Below the pieces are notes generated by a model that saw only the letters and a program-made list of their open reading frames with translations, searched no databases and had not been told where the DNA came from. A program made the translations under genes and the position numbers. A stretch of 33,694 nt of DNA, from NCBI GenBank assembly GCA_009377575.1, contig WHTU01000036.1, positions 855 through 34,548 on the forward strand. The letters run 5' to 3'. This stretch comes from Nitrososphaeraceae archaeon (GTDB lineage Archaea > Thermoproteota > Nitrososphaeria > Nitrososphaerales > Nitrososphaeraceae). Shown here in pieces: positions 2,285 through 30,604 of this stretch. Each line of letters opens with the position of its first letter. Within the stretch, counting starts at the first letter, position 1.

Positions 2285-3694
2285 ATGTCAACAACCTATA
2301 CACCTGCAATATCGTTGTGCGCTGTGTTAGTCATTACGTCTCTGTATATGGCTAATCAAGAGGTTTCTCAGACGGTGGATTCTACTGTTAGGATCATTCC
2401 AGATAATTCCAGTATTCCTTTCGTAGATTATGGGTATCATGCTGAGACTTACATTGGTCGTCAGAGGAATCCAGTTAGTATTGCTCACTCAGCTCTCGAG
2501 CACCATGAATCTTATAATAGAAGTCATGATAATGTCTATTTGCAAAAATTTCTCAATAATTCCGATTGGCTAGTAGAGAATACAGTTTCCCACGGTAACT
2601 ACTCTCTATTTGAATATCAGTTTCCTTGGCCTAGATACGATCTATTGCCTCCATGGCACTCAGGTATGGCACAGGCCCTTGCTTTAGAAGCGTTGATCAA
2701 AGCCTATGATGTTACCAATGACAAACGATACCTCAATACTTCGAAACAGCTATTAAATGCCTTCTTTATTGAAGTTAAGGATGGAGGAGTCACCTATAAA
2801 ACGCCAAATGACGGATGGTGGTATGAGGAATATGCTAAACCTGGAGCGATAGAGTCAAGAGTATTGAATGGACACACATTCGCTTTGTTAGGAATTCACA
2901 AATATTATGAATATACCCAGGATCCCGTTGCCAAATACCTTTTTAACCAAGGTATTCTTACTTTAAAGAAGAACCTTCCATCCTATGAATTTACCTTGGG
3001 AGGGGGACAATATTCAACTTATGATATTCTGAATAACGAGGTAGCTGCACCCATATTTTACCATATTGCTCAGACAAGCCATCTTGGTCAATTATACGAA
3101 ATCACAGGAGAAGAAATCTTTAAGACCTATCACGATAAGTGGACTTATTTCAGTCTACCCGAAGGTATTGCACAAGCACTAGGAACTTATCACGATCCAA
3201 AAAAAATACAACTAAGTCTAGTTACAGCAGATGAAGATTTTGTTCCAGTAGAAGAGAGCCGCCTAAAGATACAAAACACTGAAAATAGCAGCGGTAATGG
3301 CAATATGCCTGCTAAGTTTCGCATTGAAGGAGATGGGGGTAACAAAACTGCTCAGTTTACAGCATCACAGAGATTCAACTACATAGGCAAGAATATTTCT
3401 GTTACCCTGGGAGATCAGATTAAATCATTCACTAACTTGAACATTTCGTTTGTAGTAATTAGAGAAGGACATAGTGAGAAGAATAATGTAATATTCCTTC
3501 ATAGGCCTATAACTGACGGATGGAATGACGAGATCAACTATTTCATCGGAATTGGCAGTAATTCGTCTAAATCGGTCTCTGTACGGGATCTTTTCGGACA
3601 TGCTGACGAATACATGATAATCAGACAAATAGGTATAGAAGTTCCTGAAAATGCATGTGTTAATTCCATGGAATTTGAAGTCGAATTTAACTAA
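2285..3694 (+). CDS. exported D-glucuronyl C5-epimerase-family protein with C-terminal extension
   Basis: The 469-residue product begins with a hydrophobic segment (residues 8-22) that should act as signal or anchor, so it probably works outside the cell. Residues about 45-290 match the C-terminal catalytic domain of D-glucuronyl C5-epimerases, which convert D-glucuronate to L-iduronate within a polymer such as heparosan. Visible blocks shared with vertebrate GLCE are PPWHSGMAQ (GLCE has PGWYSAMAQ), WWYEEY (residues 178-183), RVLNG (192-196), STYD (244-247), YH...H..QL (from 259) and EEIFKTYHDKW. These include the tyrosines at the positions thought to be catalytic in GLCE (here Y180, Y246, Y259). 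Residues about 300-469 form an extra beta-rich region I do not recognise. A paralogue without that region lies at 5233-6168. Family confidence is high; the true substrate is unknown. Confidence 0.88.
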   Translation: MSTTYTPAISLCAVLVITSLYMANQEVSQTVDSTVRIIPDNSSIPFVDYGYHAETYIGRQRNPVSIAHSALEHHESYNRSHDNVYLQKFLNNSDWLVENTVSHGNYSLFEYQFPWPRYDLLPPWHSGMAQALALEALIKAYDVTNDKRYLNTSKQLLNAFFIEVKDGGVTYKTPNDGWWYEEYAKPGAIESRVLNGHTFALLGIHKYYEYTQDPVAKYLFNQGILTLKKNLPSYEFTLGGGQYSTYDILNNEVAAPIFYHIAQTSHLGQLYEITGEEIFKTYHDKWTYFSLPEGIAQALGTYHDPKKIQLSLVTADEDFVPVEESRLKIQNTENSSGNGNMPAKFRIEGDGGNKTAQFTASQRFNYIGKNISVTLGDQIKSFTNLNISFVVIREGHSEKNNVIFLHRPITDGWNDEINYFIGIGSNSSKSVSVRDLFGHADEYMIIRQIGIEVPENACVNSMEFEVEFN

Positions 3695-3947
3695 CAACAA
3701 AAAAGCAGTATGTATCGAGGTAACAGAGTGATGCGTGCTAATGTACTGATAAATCTTAATACACTTAACTCGACAATATCGCATGATTTTGTATAAGCCC
3801 TAGCCTAAAATTTCAAATCACGAAGGTCTGTCTGAACATCATTGAACTTCTAGTGGTTATGATCCCACTTCTGACACGTGAAAACATTAGAAATATATGC
3901 ACTTTCCAGATCACCGAGATAAAGTTACTTATTGGATAGGTAAATGA

Positions 3948-3953
3948 TTTTTT
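3948..3953 (+). terminator. T6 tract, possible archaeal terminator
   Basis: A run of six T on the plus strand lies in the gap between the convergent C5-epimerase and CHRD genes, about 250 bases after the former's stop. Archaeal termination commonly uses oligo-T tracts without a hairpin. The distance makes the assignment weak. Confidence 0.25.
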
Positions 3954-3987
3954 CTATCCCTGCTTTTAAAACTTTGTCGATGAGGCT

Positions 3988-4596
3988 TTATGCGCCATCG
4001 TTATTGCTATTGTCACTGTTTTCCTGGTTGTTCACTTCTAGGATCTCTTCTATAGTACCTCTAATCTCTCCGTCTGGATTCGCTACCGTGTGTACGTTAA
4101 CATATGTTCTCCCTTGCTCCATAAGGGTTATCAAGCTACTGATATTCTGCCCAAGATTCTGCCAAACCAACGCCTCTTGTTCTGGTAATTCGGCCTCAAC
4201 GTCTTCAATTGTAAAATCACCATCAGTCAGACTTCCATCTACTTCATCCGTAGGTTCATCGTCATCATACAAGGTTACCAAGATTGGCCCATTTCGCATT
4301 GGATTTCCCCAATGGATGTGTGCAGAATCGACTCCCTCAATGCCTTGAACTTCTAAGTCGTATGACACCTCATCGCCGTCTTCATTCAGTGTTAATGTTG
4401 CTTGACCTGATGCATTTGTAATAACCGGAGGTATTTCAGCTTGCCCAGTAAGATTCGCTGTAAATTCTTGCTCCTGTCCTTCTCCTGTATCATCTTGTGC
4501 ATAAGCTACGTCAGTTACCGGTATAACTCCAATCTGTGTAAAAACTGTAAAGCTCAGTGTAATTAGCATGATCAAAAAGATTATATTGCATCTCAT
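3988..4596 (-). CDS. secreted CHRD-domain protein
   Basis: The 202-residue product starts with a clear signal peptide (hydrophobic core to about residue 20, cleavage plausible after DVAYA, residue 33). The mature protein is one CHRD domain (chordin-type, PF07452), from about residue 42 to 185. Diagnostic features are FTANLTGQAEIPPV at the start, GQATLTLNEDGDEVSYDL, the histidine pair in AHIHWG, and YVNVHTVANPDGEIRG near the end. The tail is rich in Asn and Asp. CHRD domains occur in exported proteins of bacteria and archaea, but their biochemical role is not established. The gene is convergent with the first C5-epimerase gene. A TATA-like box about 27 bases before the ATG suggests a leaderless transcript. 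Confidence 0.93.
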   Translation of the reverse strand: MRCNIIFLIMLITLSFTVFTQIGVIPVTDVAYAQDDTGEGQEQEFTANLTGQAEIPPVITNASGQATLTLNEDGDEVSYDLEVQGIEGVDSAHIHWGNPMRNGPILVTLYDDDEPTDEVDGSLTDGDFTIEDVEAELPEQEALVWQNLGQNISSLITLMEQGRTYVNVHTVANPDGEIRGTIEEILEVNNQENSDNSNNDGA

Positions 4597-4618
4597 TAAG
4601 GTGAGTAGATGAATAGAT

Positions 4619-4628
4619 CTATAAAAGT
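4619..4628 (-). promoter_or_regulatory. TATA-like box of the CHRD gene
   Basis: The minus strand reads ACTTTTATAG, centred about 27 bases upstream of the ATG at 4596. With the usual archaeal TATA-to-start spacing, transcription would begin at or next to the start codon, giving a leaderless mRNA. Confidence 0.5.
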
Positions 4629-4683
4629 ATTAAGCAAGATAACAGTGCTTCAGCCTATGCACATGAATACCTAATTGTTGTAC

Positions 4684-5010
4684 TTACACAGATAGGTTAC
4701 ATTTCTGATTACCTACATGGGTTACACTTTGCTGCTTAGGTCCTTTATCTATAGTGGATGTAATTAATCTTTGTAGAAACATCTCTGATGGAGTAAGACC
4801 ATTGATTCCGCCATGTTCCCTAGCTTCATTGTATGCTTTAACAAACATATCATACCTTAGTTTACCATCATCAATGTTTGGTATATCTTCTAATGCTAGA
4901 AATTCATTCTTTACTATCTTGTTGTATGCTTCTATTTTCCCCTGCAGCTGTGGATAGGAATTTGGAATTCGTTTATCCTTGATATGATTATGTACCTGTC
5001 TGGAAGTACA
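4684..5010 (-). pseudogene. C-terminal remnant of an integrase-type (rve/DDE) transposase
   Basis: The minus strand encodes an uninterrupted tail typical of IS481/IS3-like transposases with an rve fold: SRQVHNHIKDKRIPNSYPQL, QGKIEAYNKIVKNEFLAL, then FVKAYNEAREHGGINGLTPS and EMFLQRL, ending at a TAA at 4684-4686. The order (P.L.GK.E..N...K.EF, then YNE..H.GI.GLTP.E) is that of the last catalytic block and the C-terminal end of such enzymes. The N-terminal helix-turn-helix and first catalytic aspartates are missing and no start codon is suitably placed. It is a dead fragment just upstream of the second C5-epimerase gene. Confidence 0.75.
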
Positions 5011-5232
5011 ACACCTAATATTGGTGTTATACAGTGTATGAGAAAATTATTTTGTGTTGCTACTTCTAAAGGAATTCGAACACATCTGTGTAGTTGCTAC
5101 TTTGTGACCGACAACGAGAATTTCATCATATAGGATCAATACCATGTTGTGTGTGTGGTTACATTCTTCTAGAAGATCCATAGAAGGCAAATCCTTTATG
5201 TAGCTGGTATTAAGAATAATGAGGATAGCACA

Positions 5233-6168
5233 ATGAAGCGTCTAGTTGTCATAGTTGTAATATCTTTGGGCATTGCATTGGTTATTACTACTCATACAGC
5301 TAATGAATGGATATTCAACACAGCATATTCTGCAAATATCATCAGGTATGATAATTCTAGCGTTCCTATTGTGGATTATGGATATAAAGGTGATATTTAC
5401 ATAGGACCTCAAAGAAATCCAATTACTGTTGCTCAGAAAGCCCTTGATTTTTACGATGGATACAATAGGACTCTGCAGAAGTTTCTCAATAATTCGGATT
5501 GGCTGGTAGAGAATGCAGTTTCATACGGCAATTACTCCCTTTTAGAATACCAATTTTTTTGGCCGGTATATGATGTGGAGCCGCCATGGCGGTCAGGTAT
5601 GGCACAGGGTCGCGCTTTAGAGGTCCTGATCAAGGCACATGAAATTACTGGTGATAAGAAATACCTTGATACTGCAAAAATGTTATTAAATGCATTTTTT
5701 GTTGAAGTCAAAGATGGTGGAGTCACTCGTAAAACTCCAAATGATGGATGGTGGTACGAGGAATACGCTTCATCGTCCAATGCTACGAAAGAAACAAGAG
5801 TACTTAACGGAATGGGATTTGCCTTGTTGGGTATTCAGAAGTATTATCAATATACTGGAGACGCGGCTGCAAAATTCCTTTTTGATCAGGGAGCAATTGC
5901 TGTAGCAAAAAGCTTACCGCGGTATGAATATGTCGACTATGAATATACTGAAGGAGCATATTCAACTTATGATATTCTTAATAATACAAGACCTGCTCCT
6001 TTAGCCTATCATAATATTCATGTAACCCAATTAGGCAAGCTCTATGATATTACAGGAGAAGAAATCTTTAAAACCTATCATGACAAATGGAGCAACCCCA
6101 AGTTGCCTGAAGTTATAGAAAAACAAGAAGAAAAAAAGCAGAGAAGTAATGCAACACAAGTAAAATAG
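5233..6168 (+). CDS. exported D-glucuronyl C5-epimerase-family protein, short form
   Basis: This 311-residue paralogue of the protein at 2285-3694 has an N-terminal hydrophobic segment (residues 4-20) that should export or anchor it. The epimerase domain occupies about residues 45-290. It shares the GLCE-like blocks PPWRSGMAQGRALE, WWYEEY (173-178), RVLNG (189-193), STYDILNN (244-251), AYH...H..QLGKLYDITG and EEIFKTYHDKW, so the likely catalytic tyrosines (Y175, Y246, Y259) are present. More than half of the positions agree with the longer protein by eye. It ends in a charged tail (EKQEEKKQRSN) and lacks the 170-residue C-terminal region of its partner. GAGG stands about 10 bases before the ATG. 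It would act on D-glucuronate (or a related uronate) in an external polysaccharide; substrate unproven. Confidence 0.88.
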   Translation: MKRLVVIVVISLGIALVITTHTANEWIFNTAYSANIIRYDNSSVPIVDYGYKGDIYIGPQRNPITVAQKALDFYDGYNRTLQKFLNNSDWLVENAVSYGNYSLLEYQFFWPVYDVEPPWRSGMAQGRALEVLIKAHEITGDKKYLDTAKMLLNAFFVEVKDGGVTRKTPNDGWWYEEYASSSNATKETRVLNGMGFALLGIQKYYQYTGDAAAKFLFDQGAIAVAKSLPRYEYVDYEYTEGAYSTYDILNNTRPAPLAYHNIHVTQLGKLYDITGEEIFKTYHDKWSNPKLPEVIEKQEEKKQRSNATQVK

Positions 6169-6825: not shown

Positions 6826-6865
6826 TCGAATGTATAAGACCTAGTACCCTAAATTGGAGAACGAG

Positions 6866-7882
6866 ATGCTAATTGATGTAAAGGGTACATCAGTTCTGGT
6901 GACCGGAGGATGTGGATTTCTGGGTTCGGAAGTGGTTAAACAGCTTTCTCGGGGTGGCTCTCAGGTTACAGTTTTTGATAATCTATCTTCTGGCAGGGAG
7001 TCCTATATACTGGGACAGCCAGGCGTGAGCTTCATAAAAGGAGACTTGACTGACGAAAGTGCGATGATTGAGGCGATGAAAGATGTTGAGTACGTTCTTC
7101 ATCTTGCAGCTCTTCCTTTTATTCCTGATTCTTATTATTATCCAAGAGACTTTTTTACTACAAACGTCAACGCTACGATAGGCCTTGCTTTGGAGGCAAT
7201 CAGAAAGAGAATCAAACGATTTGTGTACATATCCTCGAGTGAAGTGTATGGAAGTGCAAAATATACGCCGATGGATGAGAATCATCCTACATTACCACAG
7301 TCAACGTATTCTGTGAGCAAACTAGCGGCAGAAAGAGTTGTCTACACTATGCATCGAGAACACGATTTACCAGTAGTTATAATCAGGCCATTTAATTCAT
7401 TTGGCCCGAATATAACACAGCCTTACATCATTCCAGAGGTTGTCAATCAGCTCATAAACGGGAAAAAAGATGTGAAGCTTGGAAACATACACAGCAGAAG
7501 GGACTTTACTTTCGTCTCCGATACTGCTAGGGGAATAATTCAGGCAATGATCACAGATGGAATCAACGGCGAGACTATAAACATCGGGACGGGAAAATCA
7601 GTCCAGATACGAGAGCTAGTTGGAATCATAGCTGACATTATGTCGCATGAGCCCTCGATTACAATAGATGCGTCTAGAATAAGGCCCGATGACGTCGAGA
7701 CATTGATATGTGACTACAGCAAAGCAAATAGGCTGCTAGGTTGGTCTCCGACTGTAAGCCTCAGGCATGGGTTGGAAGTCACTATTGATTGGATTAGAAA
7801 GAATGGTGTTGCTATAAAGACCTCATTTCGAGGATGGCCCGCAACATATAGGGGATCATTTGATAACAACTTCGCAGAGTAA
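6866..7882 (+). CDS. SDR-family nucleotide-sugar 4,6-dehydratase or 4-epimerase
   Basis: This is an extended short-chain dehydrogenase acting on a nucleotide sugar. It has the NAD-binding TGGCGFLG motif near the N-terminus, an LHLAA segment, a serine-rich ISSSEVYG strand, the catalytic Y-x3-K pair in TYSVSKLAAE, and the substrate-side RPFNSFGP and RRDFTFVSDTARG blocks. The latter resemble 4,6-dehydratases of the LegB type as much as UDP-glucose 4-epimerases, so the exact reaction is open. I chose ATG 6866 because GGAG lies 7 bases upstream; a TTG at 6854 in the same frame is the alternative. Its stop abuts the next SDR gene, which probably acts in the same pathway. Cytoplasmic, first gene of the glycan locus. 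Confidence 0.85.
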   Translation: MLIDVKGTSVLVTGGCGFLGSEVVKQLSRGGSQVTVFDNLSSGRESYILGQPGVSFIKGDLTDESAMIEAMKDVEYVLHLAALPFIPDSYYYPRDFFTTNVNATIGLALEAIRKRIKRFVYISSSEVYGSAKYTPMDENHPTLPQSTYSVSKLAAERVVYTMHREHDLPVVIIRPFNSFGPNITQPYIIPEVVNQLINGKKDVKLGNIHSRRDFTFVSDTARGIIQAMITDGINGETINIGTGKSVQIRELVGIIADIMSHEPSITIDASRIRPDDVETLICDYSKANRLLGWSPTVSLRHGLEVTIDWIRKNGVAIKTSFRGWPATYRGSFDNNFAE

Positions 7883-8860
7883 GTGGGGGGGCCAAATGTC
7901 GTGATTGATTGGAATACTAAAAATGTCCTAGTTACGGGAGGCGCAGGATTTCTGGGTTCTTTTGTGACTAAACTTCTCCGACGCAAAAATGTGAAGAAAC
8001 TAATCATTCCACGCTCCAAGGACTGCGATCTTACTGATGTTTCAAACTGTAAGAGAATAGTCAAAGGTGTTGATATTGTATTTCATCTCGCCGCAAAAGT
8101 TGGAGGTATTGGACTTAACCTTGAAAGGCCAGCAGAGTTATTTTATGATAATTTGATAATGGGCGTGCAGCTTATGAATGAAGCAAAACTCGCAGGAGTG
8201 CAGAAGTTCATCGCCCTGGGAACTATATGCAGCTACCCTAAGTTTGCAACTGTTCCCTTTTCGGAGAATTCTATATGGGATGGCTATCCTGAGGAAACAA
8301 ACGCTCCGTACGGTCTTGCGAAGAAAATGCTCTTGGTTCAATCCCAAGCATACAGAAAACAATATGGATTTAAATCAATAGTTGTCTTTCCAACTAACCT
8401 CTATGGACCAGGAGACAATTTCGATCCTAGTTCATCTCATGTTATTCCGGCCTTAATTATGAAAGTGTACAAAGCTAAAGAATTGAAAAAGAATTTAATC
8501 ACTGTGTGGGGGGATGGAAGTCCCACCAGAGATTTCCTGTACGTGCAGGATGCCGCCTCTGGGGTAGTTAAGGCCGCCGAAAGATTTGATGGACAGGATC
8601 CCCTAAACCTAGGGTCCGAGGAGGAAATATCCATCAAGGAGCTAGTGCTTAAAATTGTGAACCTTATGGACTTCGCAGGAAAAATCATCTGGGACACTTC
8701 CAAGCCGAACGGGCAACCAAGGCGGTGCGTAAGCAATCAACGCGCAAGCGCGCTTATAGGATTTAAGCCCAAAATCGGTATGGAGGAAGGCCTCAAGAGA
8801 ACTATTTCGTGGTTTGAAAATAACATGAGTCGAAATGCTGATCGGTTATATTGGAAGTAA
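7883..8860 (+). CDS. GDP-L-fucose synthase-like SDR epimerase/reductase
   Basis: The product resembles GDP-4-keto-6-deoxymannose 3,5-epimerase/4-reductase (GDP-L-fucose synthase). Visible are TGGAGFLG (residues 18-25), FHLAAKVGGI, the cysteine-containing TICSYPKF (C116, where the family's catalytic cysteine lies), Y143-x3-K147 in APYGLAKK, NLYGPGDNFD followed by SHVIPALI (with the family's histidine), VWGDGSPTRDFLYV and NGQPRR. A GTG at 7883 directly follows the previous stop. Another GTG at 7901, about 10 bases after a G7 run that could serve as ribosome-binding site, is perhaps the better start. Together with the upstream SDR it could form a deoxyhexose pathway, but the upstream enzyme is not a typical GDP-mannose dehydratase, so the sugar is uncertain. 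Confidence 0.85.
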   Translation: MGGPNVVIDWNTKNVLVTGGAGFLGSFVTKLLRRKNVKKLIIPRSKDCDLTDVSNCKRIVKGVDIVFHLAAKVGGIGLNLERPAELFYDNLIMGVQLMNEAKLAGVQKFIALGTICSYPKFATVPFSENSIWDGYPEETNAPYGLAKKMLLVQSQAYRKQYGFKSIVVFPTNLYGPGDNFDPSSSHVIPALIMKVYKAKELKKNLITVWGDGSPTRDFLYVQDAASGVVKAAERFDGQDPLNLGSEEEISIKELVLKIVNLMDFAGKIIWDTSKPNGQPRRCVSNQRASALIGFKPKIGMEEGLKRTISWFENNMSRNADRLYWK

Positions 8861-8981: not shown

Positions 8982-10217
8982 TTATTGCGGCTCTGAGACC
9001 AACGCTTCATAGTACCGCAGAATCTTTGAAAATACTATTTCCTCATCATATTCGCTAGCCCTAATCTTTGCGTTCTCGCCTAGTCTTAATCGTAAGGAAT
9101 CGTTATTGGCAAGTAGTCGCATAGCATTTTCAAGCGCTATGGGATCATAAGGATTCACAAATAAACCTTCTCGATCATGCGCGACCAGTTGGTGATTAGC
9201 AGCAATATCACTACAAACAATTGCCCTTCCAGAGGCCATAGCTTCTAATAATGCTGTTGATAATCCTTCTGTGTAGGAGGGAAGTACGAAGATGTCTAGA
9301 GCCGCTAGGATCCTTCCAATGTCATATCTAACACCATAAAAAATTACCTTATCTTCAATAGCCCTCTTTACGGTGTATTCCTTTAGTTCGTGTTCTAATT
9401 GTCCAGCTCCAACTAATACTAATTTTATGTTTGAATAATCTTGGGCCATATTTGCGAAGGAATCCAAAAGCGTAGTTAGATTCTTTTCGGGGGAGAACCT
9501 TCCAATATATCCTATGACCCTCGTATTCTCGTCATCTGTTGTTATTCCTAATTCGTTGCGTATTTCATCTCGGTTTTTCTTAGAAAATTTGAAATTCCTT
9601 AATTTTATCGGTATCGGCATAACGTCAATCCTTTTGGTTGACAATATCAACTGCTGGAAGTACAGCCCAATTGCAGGATTTACGACCAATATCCTGTCTG
9701 CATTCTTGACTACAAAAATGTCCAAGTGACGTTCAAACCAGAGTAGAATTTTTCTAAATCTTCCACGAATAACTGATTCGAGAGTTATGTGTCGGATGCC
9801 ATGTGAAGATATTATAACAGGAATTCTCAATAACTTGCCTGATATCACCGCAGCAAGACCGGAATAACCTGTATCTTGTGCATGTACCAATTTTATAGCA
9901 GATTTTCTGTTAATCAATAAAATCTTTAGGGACCAAAGAACTGTCATAACTAATCTTGAGAGCAGGTAGACGGGATATGGGGGATATAAGAAGATTACTT
10001 TTTTATGCTTTCCATTTTTTACATCAGAAATCTCTAATGATGGGTTCATGTCAAATTTTGATAGCTGCTTAGTCTTTATGCTTGCGAAGCCACTTCCCAT
10101 CAAAGTCACAATATGGGTCCTGCTTGCAAGCCATTTTCCAAGAGAGGCAGCGAACCTTCCCTCACCGCTATAAGGAATATCAAATATTCTCGCAGACGTA
10201 ATAATGCAAATATGCAA
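8982..10217 (-). CDS. GT4-family glycosyltransferase
   Basis: This 411-residue retaining glycosyltransferase has the two Rossmann-like halves of GT-B enzymes. The N-terminal half has the YSGEGRFAASLGKWLA loop and SSHGIRH. The C-terminal half has GYIGRFSPEKNLTTLL, LVLVGAG, then VLPSYTEGLSTALLEAMASG, which contains the E-x7-E motif that binds the donor sugar nucleotide. It should act at the inner membrane face, adding a sugar to a lipid-linked glycan. It is transcribed opposite to the SDR genes and converges on them with about 120 bases between stops. Specificity cannot be read from the sequence. Confidence 0.92.
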   Translation of the reverse strand: MHICIITSARIFDIPYSGEGRFAASLGKWLASRTHIVTLMGSGFASIKTKQLSKFDMNPSLEISDVKNGKHKKVIFLYPPYPVYLLSRLVMTVLWSLKILLINRKSAIKLVHAQDTGYSGLAAVISGKLLRIPVIISSHGIRHITLESVIRGRFRKILLWFERHLDIFVVKNADRILVVNPAIGLYFQQLILSTKRIDVMPIPIKLRNFKFSKKNRDEIRNELGITTDDENTRVIGYIGRFSPEKNLTTLLDSFANMAQDYSNIKLVLVGAGQLEHELKEYTVKRAIEDKVIFYGVRYDIGRILAALDIFVLPSYTEGLSTALLEAMASGRAIVCSDIAANHQLVAHDREGLFVNPYDPIALENAMRLLANNDSLRLRLGENAKIRASEYDEEIVFSKILRYYEALVSEPQ

Positions 10218-10563: not shown

Positions 10564-11667
10564 CTACTTTAACAAATTAACATAGATTTTGTATAATTCT
10601 GGTTCCATCATTTTCCAGTTGTACTTCTGGAGAAACGCATTGCGCCCATTCTCCCCCAAACTTCTTCGGAGGTCAATATTGTCTCTCAAGCTAATTATTG
10701 CCGCTTTAATCTGATCTGAGTCGTTATAATTGACCAAAATTCCACATTCTGCCTCCTCTAGCAAGTCGGACCCGATGTTAGTAATTACTGGCAGGCCGAA
10801 CATCATTGCTTCAAACATTTTGTTTCCCATGGAATAGCTACTTATCGGATCACTTAAATCATACAGTACCATCATCGCGTCAGAACGTGCTTGTAACGCC
10901 GAAATATCACTAGGTTGGAAGAAGCCATGATATTTGACATTTGGGAGTTGCAGGATCTCATCCAGTATGTCTTTGTGTATAACTCTGCCGGCAATATCTA
11001 ATTGCACTCGGTCCAGATCCCTTATCGCAAGAGCTACCTCTTTGAGTCCACGAGTTCGAAGAATAATGCCTGTGTAAAGAAGCCTCAAACTCTTATCGTC
11101 ACGTTCCGAATATACTTTGTGACTCATATTTCGATCCTCAGAGCAATTCATTACTATGGCACAAAGTTTTGGTCTTTTGCCGAATGTTTCCAATAGTTTT
11201 GCAGAGACATTTATTAGCGCGTCAGACTTGCTCCCAATCAATTCCTCTAATGAATTTACGATAGAGTATAGTCTATTAAATTTAGTTGGAATATACGTCA
11301 TTGCATACCTGTCACATACGTCAAAGACCAGTTTGCTTCGGGAGATCACCTTATATAAAAAAGCTGGAATAGCGCTATCGAGATCGCAAGCATGCACAGC
11401 CTTTGGCCTGAACACAAATAACAACTGATATAATACCCAGATCCAGTATAATGGAAAGTACACAAATAAATAGAGCTTTCCGTAAGGCGCTCTTAGATTA
11501 AAGAGTTTGAGTCGTACAATGTAGTTATCGACTATCTTTTTTGAAAGTCCTTCTCGGTTCCATCCAAGTACTGAAATCGAGTACCTTTTTGTTAAGGATC
11601 TAACCATTTTTCCAACTCTTGGATTGTATATTATCGAATTTGATCTTACAATAACTATATCAACCAA
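10564..11667 (-). CDS. GT4-like glycosyltransferase
   Basis: A 367-residue GT-B glycosyltransferase. The N-terminal half has IYNPRVGKMVRSLTKRYSIS, then a hydrophobic amphipathic stretch (LYLFVYFPLYWIWVLYQLLF, about residues 64-83) likely to hold it at the membrane, and VHACDLDSAIPA. The C-terminal half has LLYTGIILRTRGLKEVA, YHGFFQPSDISALQARSDA, MGNKMFEAMMFGLPVI (phosphate-loop glutamate region) and a typical YNW...PEL.K.Y end. It resembles the GT4 proteins of capsule and exopolysaccharide clusters. It is divergent from the GT4 gene at 11936, with 268 bases between the starts. Donor and acceptor are unknown. Confidence 0.88.
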   Translation of the reverse strand: MVDIVIVRSNSIIYNPRVGKMVRSLTKRYSISVLGWNREGLSKKIVDNYIVRLKLFNLRAPYGKLYLFVYFPLYWIWVLYQLLFVFRPKAVHACDLDSAIPAFLYKVISRSKLVFDVCDRYAMTYIPTKFNRLYSIVNSLEELIGSKSDALINVSAKLLETFGKRPKLCAIVMNCSEDRNMSHKVYSERDDKSLRLLYTGIILRTRGLKEVALAIRDLDRVQLDIAGRVIHKDILDEILQLPNVKYHGFFQPSDISALQARSDAMMVLYDLSDPISSYSMGNKMFEAMMFGLPVITNIGSDLLEEAECGILVNYNDSDQIKAAIISLRDNIDLRRSLGENGRNAFLQKYNWKMMEPELYKIYVNLLK

Positions 11668-11935: not shown

Positions 11936-13312
11936 ATGAAGCCACATATACTAATAATCGCACAATATTTTCCCCCGGATGTAGCGGGTACGAGTACAAG
12001 GGCATACAATGCCGCTAGAGGACTGCGGAGCCAAGGGTGTAGAGTTACGGTGTTGACTGCGTTTCCACATTATCCACATGGAACCATTCCTGAAAAGTAC
12101 AGGCGTAAAACTTGTAGTGTTGAAGATCACGAGGGAATCAGGGTAATAAGAACATGGGTTCCCGCAATTTCGCATTATACTATTGCCCGGAGGATAGCTC
12201 TTCACGGTTCATTCATTCTGTCTTCCTGGCTAACAGGAGCGCTCCGAATTAGGAATGTCGATGTAATTATGTCAATGAATCCCAGTTTTTTTTCCTTTTT
12301 TCCTGCTTTTATGCTTAAGATGTTATACAAGAAAGATATTGTCCATAATGTAGACGATCTCTGGCCAGAGGTATGGTACGACCTGGGGATTGTTAAATCT
12401 CGAAATTTTAAATGGGTTCTTGATTGGATCGCTAGGCATTCATATAGAGTGCCTGTTGCCATTACTCCCATAAGTCATAGTTATGTTCACACCTTAACTC
12501 ACAAATATCATATACAAGAGGACAAGATTTTCGTCATAGAACATGGAGTGGACACAAGCAGATTTTACCGCACTGACAACATAGCAGCACGAAGCCTAGA
12601 AGGTATCATTAAGCATGACGCTGATTATAAAGCTGATATGACCGGAACTATAGTTACGACTAAACAACCTAGTCTGGCGCCCCAAGGCAATCTAACTGTT
12701 ATGCCGGCTTCGAGCAAAGCGACTGAAAACTGCGAATCTGAATTAAACACTTTGATCCTATACTCAGGTGCGTTGAGCATAGGCTATGATTTCGAACCCG
12801 TTATAAAAGCTGCTAAAGTTCTGAATGAAAAACGAGTAAGATTCATCCTACGAGGAGCAGGGACGTCAGCCAACGACGTAGAAAATCTCAAATTAATGAT
12901 AAAGCAGTTAGAAGTAAAAAACGTACAGATCAAAACCGAGAGGTTACCACCTGAGGAGTTGGTGAACCTATTGAATCAGGCGGACATTTTTCTTCTTCCG
13001 ATGAGCTTTGTCGGTTTTGATATGGGCCTTCCTACGAAAGTATTAGAATACCAGGCATTAGGAAAACCCATTGTTTGTATCTCAAATGGCGAAGCCGCTG
13101 ATTACATCTCTAAAACACGAAGCGGATTGGTATCCCGAGATAGGGATCCAGATAAGATAGCAGGGCTGATCCTCAAATTAGTAAATAATAAACAGCTAGC
13201 CACAGAGTTGGGAAATAACGGCTATTTGCATATTCAACAAAACCTAACGTTGGAGAAAATTGGACAACGATTTATGACAGTAATTGGGACAAGATGTCGT
13301 TACCGACGTTGA
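11936..13312 (+). CDS. GT4-family glycosyltransferase, WbuB-like
   Basis: The 458-residue product starts with the GT4 pattern IIAQYFPPDVAGTSTRAYNA and a VLTAFPHYPHG loop. It also carries VDDLWPEVWYDLGIVKS, a signature of the WbuB-like group (aminodeoxysugar transferases of O-antigen and capsule loci). The C-terminal half has LILYSGALSIGYDF, FILRGAG and FLLPMSFVGFDMGLPTKVLE followed by QALGKPIV. About 60 residues (roughly 215-275), rich in Thr, Ser and Lys, form an insertion between the two halves not usual for the family. Start at ATG 11936. It is followed by the GT2 gene in the same direction with 134 bases between. Specificity is unknown; the WbuB resemblance is only to the family. Confidence 0.9.
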   Translation: MKPHILIIAQYFPPDVAGTSTRAYNAARGLRSQGCRVTVLTAFPHYPHGTIPEKYRRKTCSVEDHEGIRVIRTWVPAISHYTIARRIALHGSFILSSWLTGALRIRNVDVIMSMNPSFFSFFPAFMLKMLYKKDIVHNVDDLWPEVWYDLGIVKSRNFKWVLDWIARHSYRVPVAITPISHSYVHTLTHKYHIQEDKIFVIEHGVDTSRFYRTDNIAARSLEGIIKHDADYKADMTGTIVTTKQPSLAPQGNLTVMPASSKATENCESELNTLILYSGALSIGYDFEPVIKAAKVLNEKRVRFILRGAGTSANDVENLKLMIKQLEVKNVQIKTERLPPEELVNLLNQADIFLLPMSFVGFDMGLPTKVLEYQALGKPIVCISNGEAADYISKTRSGLVSRDRDPDKIAGLILKLVNNKQLATELGNNGYLHIQQNLTLEKIGQRFMTVIGTRCRYRR

Positions 13313-13446: not shown

Positions 13447-14460
13447 TTGTCTGACAACAAAGCAATAGGGATGAATGAAGCATTGAGGTTACGAAAGGAA
13501 AAGGAAATGAGAGAAAGCTACACAATAGAGGACGTTCAGAAAACCAGTGTAGAGGTCATCATTCCAACTTTGAATGAAGAACTGACCATCGGTGGATTAA
13601 TAGACAGAATCAGGAGTCTCGACGTTCCGGTCAATACGTCAATTTTGGTTATAGATGGTGGTTCTACAGATGGCACCATAGAAGTGTGTAAAAGGAAAAA
13701 CGTGCGACTGGTTACACAAAGAGGAAGAGGGAAGGGAAAAGCAATGCGTGAAGCTGCTGATGAAACAAGTGCAGATATCATAGTATTCATTGATGCTGAT
13801 GCGACCTATCCCCCTGAAGACATGCCGCTGCTTCTGCAACCTCTACTGGAACATAAGGCTGATATGGTCGTCGGCTCGAGGATTGCCTCAAAGAGAGAGA
13901 AGGGAGCCATACAACGGTTCAATGTTCTGGGAAATAAGATATTCAATAAAGCAATCAATTTTGCGATGGGATCGTCGGTTACTGATTCACTCTCTGGCTA
14001 TCGTGCCCTCCACACAAAGACCTTTAAGGAGCTAGTTCTCTTTAGCGACAGTTTTGAAATTGAAGTTGAGATGACAGTCGAGGCCCTTGCAAGGGGCCTG
14101 AGAATCTCTGAAGTTCCCATTGGTTATGGTGTCAGAACCGGGGCACCAACTAAGCTCGACCCATTCAGAGACGGTATTAAGATTGCTAGATCGTTGCTCT
14201 TTATTTTGATGAATGTAACTCCTCTAAAATTCTTTGGCTTGATTTTTTTAGGCTTTATTGTAGTTGGATTTTACCCTGCATACTTTGTCCTACATGAGAA
14301 AATAACAGTTGGAGAGATAACTTCTATTCCTGCAGTGGTGCTTTCCTCTTTGCTTTTTGTAACCGGAGCTATTGCCCTTGTGGTAGGCATACTATCGGAG
14401 CTCGTTGTAAGGTCGAGAAGAAGGTTAGAATATCTCATTAGCAAAAAGCTTGATTCATGA
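13447..14460 (+). CDS. GT2 polyprenyl-phosphate sugar synthase (DPM1-like) with two C-terminal membrane helices
   Basis: This glycosyltransferase of family 2 resembles dolichol-phosphate mannose/glucose synthases, which load one sugar from a nucleotide onto a polyprenyl phosphate for use outside the membrane. Motifs: VEVIIPTLNEELTIGGLI, DGGSTDGT, the metal-binding DADATYPPED, VVGSR, and SGYRAL. Two hydrophobic helices at about residues 256-275 and 288-315 anchor it, as in archaeal AglD/AglJ-type enzymes. A TTG at 13447 opens the frame; ATG 13471 (after AATAGGG) is an equally good start and would remove eight residues. Its sugar-phospholipid product would suit a membrane GT-C-type enzyme, for which the giant protein at 21170 is the only candidate here (inference). 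Confidence 0.9.
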   Translation: MSDNKAIGMNEALRLRKEKEMRESYTIEDVQKTSVEVIIPTLNEELTIGGLIDRIRSLDVPVNTSILVIDGGSTDGTIEVCKRKNVRLVTQRGRGKGKAMREAADETSADIIVFIDADATYPPEDMPLLLQPLLEHKADMVVGSRIASKREKGAIQRFNVLGNKIFNKAINFAMGSSVTDSLSGYRALHTKTFKELVLFSDSFEIEVEMTVEALARGLRISEVPIGYGVRTGAPTKLDPFRDGIKIARSLLFILMNVTPLKFFGLIFLGFIVVGFYPAYFVLHEKITVGEITSIPAVVLSSLLFVTGAIALVVGILSELVVRSRRRLEYLISKKLDS

Positions 14461-14928: not shown

Positions 14929-15684
14929 ATGTATCTTAACGAAGGACTCTTCAGTCTTTCTTTGGGGCAACCCTTTGAAGCTACGGAAACAAGTATCATA
15001 AAGGCACTTGTAAAAAGAGGAGATTTCGTTGTAGACATGGGTGCCAATATAGGATATTACACGTTACTTCTGGCCAGGCTGGTCGGCCCGAATGGTAATG
15101 TATCAGCTTTCGAACCTAGCCCTACAAACTGTGAGATATTGAAGAAGAACGTGGAGATCAACGGTTATCGCAATGTAGAAATTAATCAAAAGGCTATCTC
15201 CGACAAATCTGGCAAAGCAAGATTGCATCTCTCTGTTAACCCAGCGGATAACCGAATTCGACGCGACCATCCCGAGTCTGGGGAGGGAAAAAGTGACTAC
15301 GTAGACGTCGAAACAGTTAGCTTAGATGATCACTTTTCTACAAGAGATAAGAGTATAAATTTTATCAAGATGGATATACAAGGTGGCGAATATTCAGCCG
15401 TGCTAGGCATGCAAAGAGTACTTGCAAACAATAAGAATATCAAGATAATGGCAGAGTTCTCGCCAAAACTCCTATATGAATTCGGCGCAAGGCCCTCAGA
15501 CTTCCTTCATATTTTGCAGCAAAAGGGGTTCCTTATTTATTGCTTTGATGAGAAAAGTTCTAAAATAGCTCTGACAACACCAGATGGCCTTTTGATAAAA
15601 TATCCAGAGAAGAATGATGATTATACAAACCTTCTACTAACCCGAGAGCACCTAGATGAAGATGTAATAAATCTAACGGTATGA
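14929..15684 (+). CDS. FkbM-family methyltransferase
   Basis: A SAM-dependent methyltransferase of the FkbM group, probably O-methylating a sugar of the glycan. Motif I is VVDMGANIGYYTLLLARLVG (residues about 34-53). FEPSPTN follows, and then IKMDIQGGEYSAVLGM, the usual FkbM acidic post-motif. The first ATG in frame is 14929. However, the same frame is open for 50 codons upstream (from 14779) and reads like the family's N-terminus (SLVPRAVTRKL, then FEGVLYNVDGHQMYLNEG), yet holds no ATG, GTG or TTG; only a CTG at 14782. The start was probably lost by mutation, lies at a non-standard codon, or the gene is truncated. An ATGA overlap at its end leads into a 65-codon frame. Confidence 0.88.
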   Translation: MYLNEGLFSLSLGQPFEATETSIIKALVKRGDFVVDMGANIGYYTLLLARLVGPNGNVSAFEPSPTNCEILKKNVEINGYRNVEINQKAISDKSGKARLHLSVNPADNRIRRDHPESGEGKSDYVDVETVSLDDHFSTRDKSINFIKMDIQGGEYSAVLGMQRVLANNKNIKIMAEFSPKLLYEFGARPSDFLHILQQKGFLIYCFDEKSSKIALTTPDGLLIKYPEKNDDYTNLLLTREHLDEDVINLTV

Positions 15685-15878: not shown

Positions 15879-16054
15879 TGATATGGGTTTTGCGTTAAGC
15901 CTCAAAGGTTTATTCATTGGTAAACTTCGTAGGGATAGGTTTTTGAAACTGAACAGGTCTTTTCCGGAATGAAATTTTCTATGTTTCCTGGGTATATTGA
16001 AAGTTGAAATGTTACAAACATTCATTAAACAAAAAGGATATCTGTTTTGAATTA

Positions 16055-16786
16055 ATGTCTAAGGGAGTAAAATCTTTTTTTGAATCCCATTACCACAGAT
16101 ATGTAGATAGACCAGATTTCTATTTATCGATAGCAAAAGAAATAAAGAAAGTACTGCCCGATGGAAGACGCTTGGCCTTTCTAGACGTAGGGTGCGGTGA
16201 TGGTGGTTTCATAAAGGCAATGATAGAACAAGGGATTGAAGCAGATTACTTAGCAACAGATCTCTCCTTAAATATGCTTCTAAAGGCCTCAGCTAACCTT
16301 GTTAATTACGATGTGGATTTATTTCAAGCCGATGCCTTCCAATTATCGTTGAAGGAATCTCGAAAATTTGACATAATACATATCGATTCGGTATTACACC
16401 ATCTCATCGGAAAAACCAGGGGAGAAAGCTTAGAACTAGTTAAAAAAATGTTAAACACACTCCTAGATAGACTTTCTAGCAATGGGATTCTGATCGTTGA
16501 AGAAGTATATTATGATTCATATTTACTCTCAACTATCACATCATTTTTTGTATTTTACGGTTTGAAGTTGATCAACTTTTTAAATCTAGATCTAAGTTTT
16601 ACCAGAGAAATAAGGCCAGGACTGGAAGTAAATTTCTTGCACGAAAGACAACTTATAAAGATCCTGGACCATTTTGGTACTTCTATAACTTTACTAAATA
16701 AAGAAATCTGGGAGCTTCCCAGTGTATATCAATTGTTTCTACTTAAAGAACGTGGACATATTACCTATACAGCAAAAAGAAACTGA
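16055..16786 (+). CDS. class I SAM-dependent methyltransferase
   Basis: A Rossmann-fold methyltransferase with motif I in FLDVGCGDGGF, an acidic ATDLS at the end of strand two, ADAFQL, and DIIHIDSVLHHL before the post-motif region. ILIVEEVYY follows as in UbiE/Methyltransf_11-type proteins. A hydrophobic stretch (LLSTITSFFVFYGLKLINFL) in the C-terminal half may contact membrane or lipid substrate. I chose ATG 16055; a TTG at 16004 would add 17 residues that look unrelated. It lies in the glycan locus, so methylation of a glycan or lipid-linked intermediate is plausible, but small-molecule methylation cannot be excluded. It converges on the UDP-GlcNAc 2-epimerase gene with only 23 bases between the stops. 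Confidence 0.85.
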   Translation: MSKGVKSFFESHYHRYVDRPDFYLSIAKEIKKVLPDGRRLAFLDVGCGDGGFIKAMIEQGIEADYLATDLSLNMLLKASANLVNYDVDLFQADAFQLSLKESRKFDIIHIDSVLHHLIGKTRGESLELVKKMLNTLLDRLSSNGILIVEEVYYDSYLLSTITSFFVFYGLKLINFLNLDLSFTREIRPGLEVNFLHERQLIKILDHFGTSITLLNKEIWELPSVYQLFLLKERGHITYTAKRN

Positions 16787-16809: not shown

Positions 16810-17925
16810 TCATATTTTTTTGTTTATCTCATTTTTTCGTAGAAGTATTCTCATTATTTTGTCGGAAGCATACCCTGCTCCATACGGTGATTTACGAATA
16901 CTAATTCTTTTGGGCTGATCCGAATGCCATTCTAAATGTATGCTGCTGGAGATATGTTTCCGACTGATGGATAGGAGTTTGACAATTCCCGAAGCGACTG
17001 CTTCAGGTCTTTCAGTAGAGTCCCGTATTACAAAGACTCTCTTTAATAGAGAAGGGGAAGTAGCTTCCTCCTGGATGCCTCCCGAATCGGTTACCACAAA
17101 TCTCGAATTCTTCAATAGTACCAGAAAGTCGAGATAACCCTGCGGCGACAGTATTTGGATGTTTTTCGAAGCCAGCTTATTGGAGTAATTGTTTGCTCGT
17201 AACCTTTCTTGGGTTCTGGGATGTATGGGTATGACTAAAGGGACATTTGATCTGATCAGCCCTTCAAGGATTTCGCCAAGAATTCTAGGGCTGTCAACAT
17301 TTTCAGCTCTGTGGATAGTAACAAGCACATATTCTTTGAATCTGATATTGTTCATTACTTTTGATTTCTTCATAGCTATGGGGAGATGCTCTCGAACAGC
17401 ATCGATAATCGTGTTACCAGTTACAAAGATCTCCCCGTGAACTTTTTCCATCTCCAGGTTCACTCTAGACGTCTCGGTAGGTGCAAACAAGATATCAGAA
17501 ATATGATCTACCATACGTCTGTTATGTTCCTCTGGCATTCTCCAATCGTAACTTCGCAAACCCGCTTCTACGTGTGCAATTGGAATACCGACTTTTACTC
17601 CAGTTAATGCAGCAGAGACGACGCTATTGGTATCTCCTTGTATAAGGAGAATGCTCTTTTTAGCGATCTGCCTAAATGGTCGTTCTAATTTTGACATTAT
17701 CTCTCCAATTTGCGCGGCAGGCGAGTTTGACCTTAATACGAAGCTCCTGTACGGCTTGGGCAGCTGAAGGTCCTTCAACATCTGCTTTGACAAAAGGTAG
17801 TCATAGTGCTGCCCAGTATGCACGAAATGTACCCTTAAACCACCGGCCATTAACCTCCTTATCACAGGTGCCATCTTGATGATTTCTGGACGTGTTCCAG
17901 TAACAACTATATAATTATCAAACAT
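16810..17925 (-). CDS. wecB: UDP-N-acetylglucosamine 2-epimerase (non-hydrolysing)
   Basis: This enzyme interconverts UDP-GlcNAc and UDP-ManNAc in the cytoplasm, the first step towards UDP-ManNAcA. It has the full family set: GTRPEIIKMAPVI at residues 10-22, HTGQHYD, GDTNS (D98), HVEAGLRS (E120), MPEEHNRR (E132/E133), TIHRAEN (H205), and DSGGIQEEA near the C-terminus. These cover the acidic residues and histidine known to be important in bacterial WecB. At 371 residues it is of normal length. The dehydrogenase gene for the next step lies immediately upstream on the same strand, 28 bases away, so the two form an operon. Confidence in function is high. Confidence 0.94.
   Translation of the reverse strand: MFDNYIVVTGTRPEIIKMAPVIRRLMAGGLRVHFVHTGQHYDYLLSKQMLKDLQLPKPYRSFVLRSNSPAAQIGEIMSKLERPFRQIAKKSILLIQGDTNSVVSAALTGVKVGIPIAHVEAGLRSYDWRMPEEHNRRMVDHISDILFAPTETSRVNLEMEKVHGEIFVTGNTIIDAVREHLPIAMKKSKVMNNIRFKEYVLVTIHRAENVDSPRILGEILEGLIRSNVPLVIPIHPRTQERLRANNYSNKLASKNIQILSPQGYLDFLVLLKNSRFVVTDSGGIQEEATSPSLLKRVFVIRDSTERPEAVASGIVKLLSISRKHISSSIHLEWHSDQPKRISIRKSPYGAGYASDKIMRILLRKNEINKKI
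16815..16837 (+). terminator. double oligo-T tract after the methyltransferase gene
   Basis: T7 (16815-16821) and T6 (16832-16837) on the plus strand begin about 28 bases after the methyltransferase stop. They overlap the lysine-rich 3' end of the opposing wecB-like gene. Oligo-T runs suffice for archaeal termination, so this may end the plus-strand transcript. Confidence 0.4.
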
Positions 17926-17953: not shown

Positions 17954-19339
17954 TTAACCATCCAGACCGGGAGCAGTATAATAGGTACGCTTAGATCCGA
18001 TAAACTCCTTTTTTCTTAGCTTCCGCGCTGCATCTACTATTATACAAGAAGGCTTGAAATCATTGGGGGACAGTGAGGCGTACGCGTCATGACCAGTGAC
18101 GAGGATTATACAATCACAGTTTTTCAGCAGTGATTTGAGATCAGAACTTCTCATCCCGAAGGTTTCCTTGCATATCGGGTCATGGACAATTATCTCTGTA
18201 TATCCTCTCTTTCTAAGTTCTAAGATTATTCTTTTAGTTGGAGAATTTTGAATGTCATTTACGTTGGGCTTATATGCTGTCCCTAATATTCCGATCTTAA
18301 GCTTATTTGCCTGCTTAGCCGGAGATATAATCTCCAGCTTTCTAACCATCAAGTCTACCACGTACCTAGGCATGGAGTCATTTATCGATCTGGCCTTCTC
18401 AATTAAAGAGGCGGAGATCCTGCTCTTGGATAAAAGAAGATAGGGGTCTTTAGGGAGGCAAGGGCCGCCCACCCCTGGGCCCGGATTGTGTATATTAACC
18501 CTTGGATGGGTATTGGCAATTTGAATGACCTCGGTAACATCGACATTATAATGCTGGCAAACCATCGCTAGCTCGTTTGCAAACGCAATATTAACATCTC
18601 TATAAGCGTTTTCGGCAAGTTTTGAGACTTCAGCGGTCTCAAAGCTACTACATACTAGTTGGGCATCGGTGAAGTTGGAATAAAGAGTCTTGGCCGCCTC
18701 ATAACTTTCGCTATCTGTGGCGCCTATTATCCGAACCGTATCAGAGATTCCATTTAATGCCTGACCAGGTGATAATCGTTCGGGACAGAAAGCTAGAAGA
18801 AAACCTGATCCGAGTTTTTTACCTGTTGCCTTCTCGAGAATAGGTACGACTAGGCCAGACATTGTCATTGGAGGGATACTGCTTTCGATGATTAACAGTT
18901 TTTTTGAATTCACACAGTGGGAGGCAATCCCATTTACAGCTTTAGAGAGATAGCTAAGGTCTGCACTTAAATCTCGACCCAGGGGGGTCGGAACACACAC
19001 AATTATTATATCCGCAGCCGAGAGCGACTGATACGATGAACCGAACATAATTCTATCCGTAGACAACCCTCTTACTAATAGATTCTTTATCTCATCTTCC
19101 TGTATTGCTGTAATGCCTTTGGAAAGTTCGTCTAGTAAACTGGAATTCGTATCATAGCCTATTACGTTGTAGCCAACTTTCGCAATTGTAAGTGCGGTTG
19201 GTAATCCGACCTGGCCCAAACCCACAACGCCGACCTTGACATCTTTTGTTTTTATTCTAGTGATAATGTCATGTGCTGATGTGTTACCTGCTATTTGTGA
19301 CATAGATGGGCCATTGATTGGTTTGATATCTGAAGACAT
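17954..19339 (-). CDS. wecC: UDP-N-acetyl-D-mannosamine dehydrogenase
   Basis: A nucleotide-sugar 6-dehydrogenase that oxidises C6 of the sugar with two NAD+. The NAD-binding motif is VGVVGLGQVGLPTAL (residues 36-50). VCVPTPLG and IESSIPP follow, then FCPERLSPG, and GPGVGGPCLPKDPY with the catalytic Cys294. ILGTAYKPNVNDIQNSPT lies in the C-terminal UDP-binding domain. The FCPER-G pattern and the adjacent 2-epimerase gene favour UDP-ManNAc as substrate, giving UDP-ManNAcA. UDP-GlcNAc or UDP-Glc dehydrogenase activity is the alternative. The N-terminal 35 residues before the Rossmann fold are longer than usual; a start at M13 is possible. AATTATACATAAG just upstream (about 19351-19363, minus strand) resembles a TATA box but is rather close to the ATG. 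Confidence 0.9.
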   Translation of the reverse strand: MSSDIKPINGPSMSQIAGNTSAHDIITRIKTKDVKVGVVGLGQVGLPTALTIAKVGYNVIGYDTNSSLLDELSKGITAIQEDEIKNLLVRGLSTDRIMFGSSYQSLSAADIIIVCVPTPLGRDLSADLSYLSKAVNGIASHCVNSKKLLIIESSIPPMTMSGLVVPILEKATGKKLGSGFLLAFCPERLSPGQALNGISDTVRIIGATDSESYEAAKTLYSNFTDAQLVCSSFETAEVSKLAENAYRDVNIAFANELAMVCQHYNVDVTEVIQIANTHPRVNIHNPGPGVGGPCLPKDPYLLLSKSRISASLIEKARSINDSMPRYVVDLMVRKLEIISPAKQANKLKIGILGTAYKPNVNDIQNSPTKRIILELRKRGYTEIIVHDPICKETFGMRSSDLKSLLKNCDCIILVTGHDAYASLSPNDFKPSCIIVDAARKLRKKEFIGSKRTYYTAPGLDG

Positions 19340-20040: not shown

Positions 20041-20079
20041 TTGAGATGCACAAACAACAGCTTTTTATATCCTTTCGCT

Positions 20080-27543: not shown

Positions 27544-28683
<1,140 letters not shown>

Positions 28684-28922
28684 AACTAGAGGAGAGAGAA
28701 AGCGCTCTACTATATTTTTAACTGTACGAATCTATTTGTTCTAGAATTGATAAATCAACAACGCTAGGAATTACTTTACAGTTCAGTCATTCGTATTGTG
28801 CCATAATCAAGACATATGTTCGCGGATTCGTCTGAAGTGACGAGAGTTATTTATGTGTGCAATCATAAAGCCTCTATGCATTTACTGTAATACTATAATA
28901 CTACAAAAAGGAGAGATGATAA

Positions 28923-30101: not shown

Positions 30102-30604
30102 ATACTATTAAACATTACTGCTATTTTGAAAAAAGTAAAAATTAATCGGACCAGACAAGTTGTAAAAAGCTGATAAGCTGGTCTTTGCCTTACACAAATT
30201 TAAGCCTGCAAGTTGTTAGTTCGCAAGAAGTAAAGCGACACTCCTGAATCATCGCACGATAACTCGACCCTAACCCAGTGTATGATGATAAACAAATCTT
30301 GAAAAAGCCTGAGAAACTGGACTTGTAGGATGCAATAATCTCACGGCCAGAGAGGGGAGCTAAGCAGAAAAACTGCAAGATGGGCGGCGTATTGTCTCTA
30401 TTAATTTAGAAATCAAACCCCAAAATCTCATAACTTCGGTCGATATTTATAATAGCCATTTAACTAATTCTTATAATATTTGGTACCTAAGAAATAGGAG
30501 ATACAGATATTACTATAAGAAGTTAAAGCAGATTCTGAAAATCTTCGTATATACCAGTTCTTCTATTCCCTAATTAATTGATCCATTTTTCAAGCCGCAA
30601 AATT
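30102..30604. other. divergent intergenic region with promoter-like AT tracts
   Basis: About 500 bases between the outward-facing PDZ gene and the discoidin gene. The left part should hold the PDZ-gene promoter. The right part has several AT boxes (TTTATAAT near 30450, CTTATAATATT near 30471, GTATATACC near 30548). No gene is evident; a 62-codon minus-strand frame at 30190-30378 has no support. Confidence 0.5.
30547..30555 (+). promoter_or_regulatory. TATA-like box of the discoidin-protein gene
   Basis: CGTATATACC lies about 55 bases before ATG 30605, placing a transcript start near 30575 and giving a leader of about 30 bases for that start. Confidence 0.4.

Follow-up and report, generated by a model that had tools for sequence, protein, structure and literature searches.

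In animals, the D-glucuronyl C5-epimerase GLCE, a type II membrane protein of the Golgi, turns glucuronate into iduronate within heparan sulfate. A prokaryotic homologue, RED65_08024 of Bermanella marisrubri, converts glucuronic acid (GlcA) into iduronic acid (IdoA) in vitro (Raedts 2013, as described in PMC4432689), and, in archaea, Agl32 of Halobacterium salinarum has been characterised as a glucuronyl C5-epimerase whose active site is a different one; it acts on a lipid-linked glycan that is yet to be delivered across the membrane (PMC13308652). Here, we describe two GLCE-family genes (copy 1 and copy 2) in 33,694 nucleotides of contig WHTU01000036.1 (C299), a stretch called the window throughout, from a Nitrososphaeraceae archaeon (3.89 Mb, 380 contigs, 99% complete); from its kinship, we infer that the host is a relative of the ammonia-oxidising archaea (AOA) of Nitrososphaeraceae type, a search of the genome for archaeal small-subunit rRNA having given no match. 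The pair are genuine GLCE-family proteins, and precursor genes, a recurring neighbour gene, and the N-glycan of a relative make us favour an N-acetylated hexuronic acid over GlcA as their substrate.

Both open reading frames (ORFs) singled out by the first-pass annotation are real (Table 1), and their proposed kinship to D-glucuronyl C5-epimerase holds: both match the PF06662 profile (C5-epim_C, E about 2e-40), with 138.7 and 138.8 bits for a curated cut-off of 23.3. For both copies, a PDB sequence search returned the GLCE structures 6hzz, 6i01, and 4pw2 at about 1e-15 to 2e-16 and, beside human and zebrafish GLCE, no second family of comparable strength. The motifs read from the letters (PPW.SGMAQ, WWYEEY, RVLNG, STYD, and YH...H..QL) are present, and so are the catalytic tyrosines, to which the alignment to 6hzz adds E499 and N510 (human numbering). 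The residues listed as catalytic in human GLCE, namely E499, Y500, N510, Y560, and Y578 (PMC13308652), correspond in that alignment to E182, Y183, N195, Y246, and Y259 of copy 1 and to E177, Y178, N192, Y246, and Y259 of copy 2. Copy 2 consists of an N-terminal hydrophobic anchor (residues 4-22) followed by the catalytic domain alone; copy 1 has its anchor at residues 5-23, the catalytic domain at residues 36-290, and an extra C-terminal domain at residues 300-469. The latter weakly resembles the C-terminus of a paralogue on contig C329 of the same genome and a 418-aa (amino acid) protein near another relative's GLCE gene (L043:12723-13976), with phmmer E-values of 3.4e-7 and 2.8e-5 among 1312 neighbourhood proteins.

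AlphaFold models can be superposed on human and zebrafish GLCE at the level of the predicted fold, and it is at this level that the pair pass the structural test set by the first-pass annotation. The model of copy 2 (mean predicted local distance difference test, pLDDT, 90.7) has only GLCE chains as its top 8 PDB fold matches (E about 3e-11 to 2e-10) and lies at a root-mean-square deviation of 2.5 A over 219 columns from human GLCE with substrate, most GLCE chains being alike; that of copy 1 (pLDDT mostly 90-99 over residues 40-290, below 50 from 300) gives the same GLCE ranking with a poorer superposition (5.7 A). One has to keep in mind that a polysaccharide lyase or hydrolase could use the same alpha/alpha-barrel scaffold to cut a glycan rather than epimerise it: beyond GLCE, the fold neighbours are GH76 and AGE-type enzymes, the Pfam search gave a weak match to PF07944 (GH127), and proton abstraction is common to uronate lyases and epimerases. 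We nevertheless consider this very unlikely, as all the GLCE catalytic residues are conserved, the gene context is biosynthetic and not degradative, and the fold matches to GLCE are stronger than those to hydrolases by some six orders of magnitude (the best non-GLCE match of copy 2 has an E-value of 8e-5).

The two copies are 61% identical and are sisters, with 99% support, in a tree of 97 sequences. Nonsynonymous divergence (dN) between them is about 0.23-0.25 and synonymous divergence (dS) about 1.0-1.5, which is near saturation, with dN/dS at about 0.17-0.23; both copies are under purifying selection, as would be expected of a retained function. Three further clear family members (defined as PF06662 above 60 bits) are found in the same genome, a pair on C329 and one on C321. 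The C329 pair lies in an island of its own, with genes for a short-chain dehydrogenase/reductase (SDR), a family 4 glycosyltransferase (GT4), a flippase, a discoidin protein, and a 352-aa exported protein family without known function. In the human-numbered alignment, these paralogues lack E499 and Y500, some losing more; the fold can therefore outlive the full catalytic set, and the window copies might likewise be degenerate proteins that only bind carbohydrate. This is, in our opinion, highly improbable, given that both keep the complete set at a dN/dS of about 0.2; by their conserved residues, they are very probably catalytic.

Clear members occur in 10 of the 49 Nitrososphaeraceae genomes and, at the same threshold, in none of the 32 other genomes sampled from the order; a phylum-wide sample of 349 genomes contained 6 with such members. 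Candidatus Nitrosopolaris wilkensis and Nitrososphaerales archaeon TH526 also have family members. PF06662 hits of about 20-33 bits across the order, mostly in frames of about 700 aa, were not counted, being taken for another kind of alpha/alpha-barrel protein. A wider, alignment-based scan retrieved 293 relatives from bacterial and archaeal genomes (a single-sequence scan of the same contigs returned none), 80 of which are covered by the analysis of loci. E499 and Y500 are frequent in the 80-locus set partly by selection, because the retrieval pattern, which included GWWYE[EL][YFL]A, spans them; N510, Y560, and Y578 lie outside the patterns. These loci are mostly bacterial (Bacteroidota, KSB1, Calditrichota, Actinomycetota, Cloacimonadota, and others), with Geoglobus, Thermoplasmata, and Thermoproteota in addition, and the scattering of archaeal members among bacterial ones in the 97-sequence tree would fit horizontal transfer.

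The family also includes several unusual forms. In one protein (L040:5679-6614, genome G016), the GLCE domain is naturally circularly permuted, with profile positions 103-291 preceding 35-103 in one open frame; the protein keeps the N-terminal hydrophobic segment and four of the catalytic residues, E499 being replaced by Leu. In a Nitrososphaeraceae subfamily (L037:9420-10310, L044, L045, L047, L048, and L050), IFLQILAKP or a similar stretch replaces WWYEEYA, so that E499 and Y500 are lost while N510, Y560, and Y578 are retained; its gene adjoins a histidine-kinase gene in L037 and L047. A second divergent subfamily (L049:8961-9914, L051:9394-10317, and L052:14335-14979) has lost E499, Y500, and Y578. 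Finally, a Nitrosopolaris copy (L042:9625-10527, the same as L063) carries N510S, Y578R, and an internal duplication of an ILEYxFPYPxY-like stretch, and is flanked by fragments of a gene for a 1443-aa membrane protein also found in the window; it looks like a decaying locus.

The export segments reported for both window copies were recovered by hydrophobicity, as one N-terminal segment each (Kyte-Doolittle 1.65 in copy 1, the weaker of the two, and 2.41 in copy 2), which AlphaFold models as a helix in both. Such a segment is common to most AOA members and to the nearer bacterial relatives, and many KSB1 and Calditrichota members are without it. The simplest reading of these sequences is that the pair would be anchored enzymes facing outward.

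The first-pass annotation had placed the pair near genes for UDP-ManNAcA (uridine diphosphate N-acetylmannosaminuronic acid), several GT4 genes, and discoidin exoproteins; wecB, a wecC-like gene, the GT4 genes, and a two-domain discoidin protein were all found, and the location of the copies in a surface-glycan assembly island is supported. The WecC-like dehydrogenase scores 333.5 bits with the UDP-ManNAc dehydrogenase model versus 185.7 and 159.2 with UDP-glucose dehydrogenase models, its best PDB match being 4r16, a hypothetical UDP-ManNAcA dehydrogenase. Genome-wide, all the PF03721-family UDP-sugar dehydrogenases that could be typed favour UDP-ManNAc over UDP-glucose dehydrogenase models; the short C332 and C338 proteins are best, if weakly, matched by N-acetylhexosamine (HexNAc) models, their type not being confidently called. 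The typed dehydrogenases of the three further genomes in which all five catalytic residues are present are likewise of UDP-HexNAc type, as are 5 of 5 sugar dehydrogenases found beside family genes, and profile searches of these four genomes found no enzyme of UDP-glucose-dehydrogenase type. An AglM-preferring dehydrogenase shows up in just two, G014 and G044, of the ten AOA genomes with GLCE-family genes, and both are without a canonical five-residue copy. Heparosan requires UDP-GlcA, and since no enzyme of the type that would supply it was found, the heparosan-like system proposed earlier is not supported.

In at least 50 of the 80 related loci, a gene assigned to polysaccharide assembly is present within 10 kb (classes counted: GT4, GT2, Wzx, WbaP, WecB, DegT, and sugar dehydrogenase). 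WecB is encoded in the vicinity of the family gene at 14 of the 80, in the window, and in two AOA relatives, with smallest gaps of 9 bases. At the actinomycetotal locus L105, about 5 kb from the family gene, a run of five genes codes for a HexNAc dehydrogenase, a UDP-GlcNAc-3-dehydrogenase-like oxidoreductase, a hexapeptide acetyltransferase, a DegT aminotransferase, and WecB, which we take to be the known gene set for UDP-ManNAc3NAcA, the di-N-acetylated counterpart of UDP-ManNAcA (Wbp pathway). Such sugars are on record: HexA(NAc)2 is present in the N-glycan of Nitrososphaera viennensis together with four Hex(NAc)2(CONH2) units (PMC12153357), N-acetyl-L-gulosaminuronic acid (L-GulNAcA) has been proposed as the product of C5 inversion of ManNAcA (PMC3901696), gulosaminuronic acid has been reported from cell walls of Halococcus morrhuae (PMC4187196), and L-gulosaminuronic acid occurs in a bacterial biofilm polysaccharide, its C5-epimerase being called unknown (PMC4432689). 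In the literature consulted on these sugars, we identified no C5-epimerase for L-gulosaminuronic acids.

We, thus, propose, with a probability of roughly 0.5, that both copies are active, membrane-anchored, outward-facing uronyl C5-epimerases acting on an N-acetylated hexuronic acid of a surface glycan. On the cell exterior, they would act on a hexuronic acid already present in the surface glycan or in a flipped lipid-linked oligosaccharide, abstracting the C5 proton and adding it back by means of the five active-site residues that they share with animal GLCE, so that the D-uronic residue would be inverted to its L-form. The likeliest substrate would be ManNAcA, or else a di-N-acetyl or amidated form related to it, supplied by the WecB and WecC-like enzymes of the island, and the product would be residues of L-GulNAcA type. 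Each step leans on its own kind of evidence: export is suggested by hydrophobicity, catalysis by homology, action on a polymer rather than a monomer by the analogy with GLCE, and the identity of the substrate, a working hypothesis, by the precursor genes.

Several points weigh against this proposal. The recurrence of WecB is a raw count without a background rate for polysaccharide loci, and enrichment is therefore not claimed; dehydrogenase specificity is assigned by profiles, none passing a substrate-specific equivalog cut-off; the wecB and wecC genes of the window are separated from the GLCE genes by more than 10 kb, in an island that may make several glycans; the hydrophobic segment of copy 1 is weak; and the characterised relatives, human GLCE and the Bermanella enzyme, act on GlcA. 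This last point, together with the conservation of all five human catalytic residues and the presence of two Sulfotransfer_3 genes elsewhere in the genome, would suit the conversion of D-GlcA into L-IdoA in an exported GlcA-containing polymer, as done by GLCE in heparan sulfate. We find this unlikely, however: besides the missing UDP-glucose-dehydrogenase-type enzyme and the HexNAc type of the adjoining dehydrogenases, a sulfotransferase is absent from the window, and PF13469 detected none in three relatives. Another uronate, of galacturonate or mannuronate type or methylated by the island methyltransferases, would be epimerised by the same chemistry, and the SDR and methyltransferase genes of the island could yield unusual sugars; still, no gene specific for such substrates was identified, and WecB, WecC, and the literature favour N-acetylated sugars, which makes this idea rather improbable. 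Extending the N-acetylated-uronate proposal to the family, namely that many prokaryotic GLCE-family proteins epimerise ManNAcA or ManNAc3NAcA to L-GulNAcA or L-GulNAc3NAcA and not glucuronate, is a tentative step that we would not bet on.

Table 1. Features of the window (positions in nucleotides from its first letter; SAM, S-adenosylmethionine).
Feature	Position	Strand	Evidence
GLCE-family copy 1 (469 aa)	2285..3694	+	PF06662 E 2e-40; 6hzz E 2.2e-16
Copy 1 C-terminal domain	3182..3691	+	Weak phmmer similarity; pLDDT low
CHRD-domain exported protein between copies	3988..4596	-	PF07452 E 4.8e-30; N-terminal hydrophobic segment
GLCE-family copy 2 (311 aa)	5233..6168	+	PF06662 E 1.9e-40; 6hzz E 1.7e-16
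NAD-dependent sugar-nucleotide epimerase/dehydratase (SDR)	6854..7882	+	PF16363 1.1e-60; best NCBIfam LegB/RmlB-like, below cut-off
SDR, GDP-L-fucose-synthase-like	7883..8860	+	PF01370; NF047922 274 bits, below cut-off 500
GT4 glycosyltransferase	8982..10217	-	PF00534 4.3e-36
GT4-type glycosyltransferase	10564..11667	-	PF13692 6.6e-13
GT4 glycosyltransferase	11936..13312	+	PF00534 3.7e-23
GT2 glycosyltransferase, C-terminal membrane segments	13447..14460	+	PF00535 6.7e-27; hydrophobicity
FkbM-type methyltransferase	14929..15684	+	PF05050 7.1e-20
SAM-dependent methyltransferase	16004..16786	+	PF08242 4.3e-13
WecB, non-hydrolysing UDP-GlcNAc 2-epimerase (to UDP-ManNAc)	16810..17925	-	TIGR00236 320.9 bits, cut-off 210
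UDP-HexNAc 6-dehydrogenase, WecC-like (predicted UDP-ManNAcA synthesis)	17954..19339	-	TIGR03026 over cut-off
GT4 glycosyltransferase	20041..21192	+	PF00534 5.5e-13
1443-aa membrane protein, about 16-17 segments, large extracellular-type C-terminal part	21170..25501	+	Hydrophobicity
352-aa exported protein, no family match	25980..27038	-	Homologue L036:6003-6998 E 8.6e-45, C329 island of the same genome
Exported protein, F5/8 type C (discoidin) domains	30578..32509	+	PF00754 2e-37, two stretches

The 1443-aa membrane protein gave no match in Pfam and NCBIfam searches; its homologues in L041 and L042 show that it recurs near GLCE genes in Nitrosopolaris, and it is a candidate glycan polymerase, lipid-linked-sugar transferase, or exporter. 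The 2285-6168 interval additionally contains the unrelated CHRD-domain gene, which does not obviously belong to the epimerase system, and, at about 4600-5240 on the minus strand, broken frames that we read as a degenerate integrase-like remnant. Upstream of copy 1, an ORF at 1708-2208 matches no more than a part of the F5/8 domain, a 122-aa ORF (601-966, minus strand) is an incomplete copy of the C-terminal region of the 352-aa exported protein, and a fragment of an IS4/5-type transposase (PF13340) lies at 57-458 on the minus strand. Two adjoining exported proteins (27544-30101) have a PDZ domain and a PsbP-like domain each.

How does the pair compare with known systems? The novelty outside animals suggested by the first-pass annotation does not stand, with the Bermanella enzyme already known (PMC4432689) and 293 bacterial and archaeal relatives found; the pair are additional members of a known, widely distributed family. 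That no archaeal member had been characterised seems true of the GLCE fold, though not of archaeal C5-epimerases as a whole, in view of Agl32 (PMC13308652). To judge from the sequences, C5 epimerisation of the GLCE type, with all catalytic residues in place, would extend to ammonia-oxidising archaea, and a testable link is drawn between the GLCE family and N-acetylated hexuronic acids. If it is true, L-gulosaminuronic acids would gain an enzyme type, the default annotation "D-glucuronyl C5-epimerase" would change for many prokaryotic proteins, rare L-uronates would gain a biocatalyst lead, and the heparan sulfate epimerase would represent a specialised offshoot of an old family devoted to surface glycans.

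With vertebrate GLCE (6hzz, 6i01, and 4pw2), the window copies share a homologous catalytic domain, the five catalytic residues, and a membrane anchor. Unlike it, they lack the N-terminal beta-hairpin and beta-sandwich domains of the animal three-domain architecture (the modelled catalytic domain has only about 35 residues in front of it, and PDB alignments begin at chain residue 311), they are only about 26-29% identical to it, copy 1 has its additional C-terminal domain, and the precursor genes do not indicate a GlcA polymer. The Bermanella enzyme is, by its description, alike as a prokaryotic GLCE homologue. Agl32 is also an archaeal uronate C5-epimerase of surface glycans, but its description would set it apart from the pair, with an AGE-like overall fold and none of the GLCE catalytic residues. 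The alginate mannuronan C5-epimerases AlgG and AlgE differ in fold from the GLCE family, and their substrate carries no N-acetyl group; they nevertheless offer a parallel for the proposed reaction, in that they invert C5 after polymerisation, from a manno- to a gulo-configured uronate.

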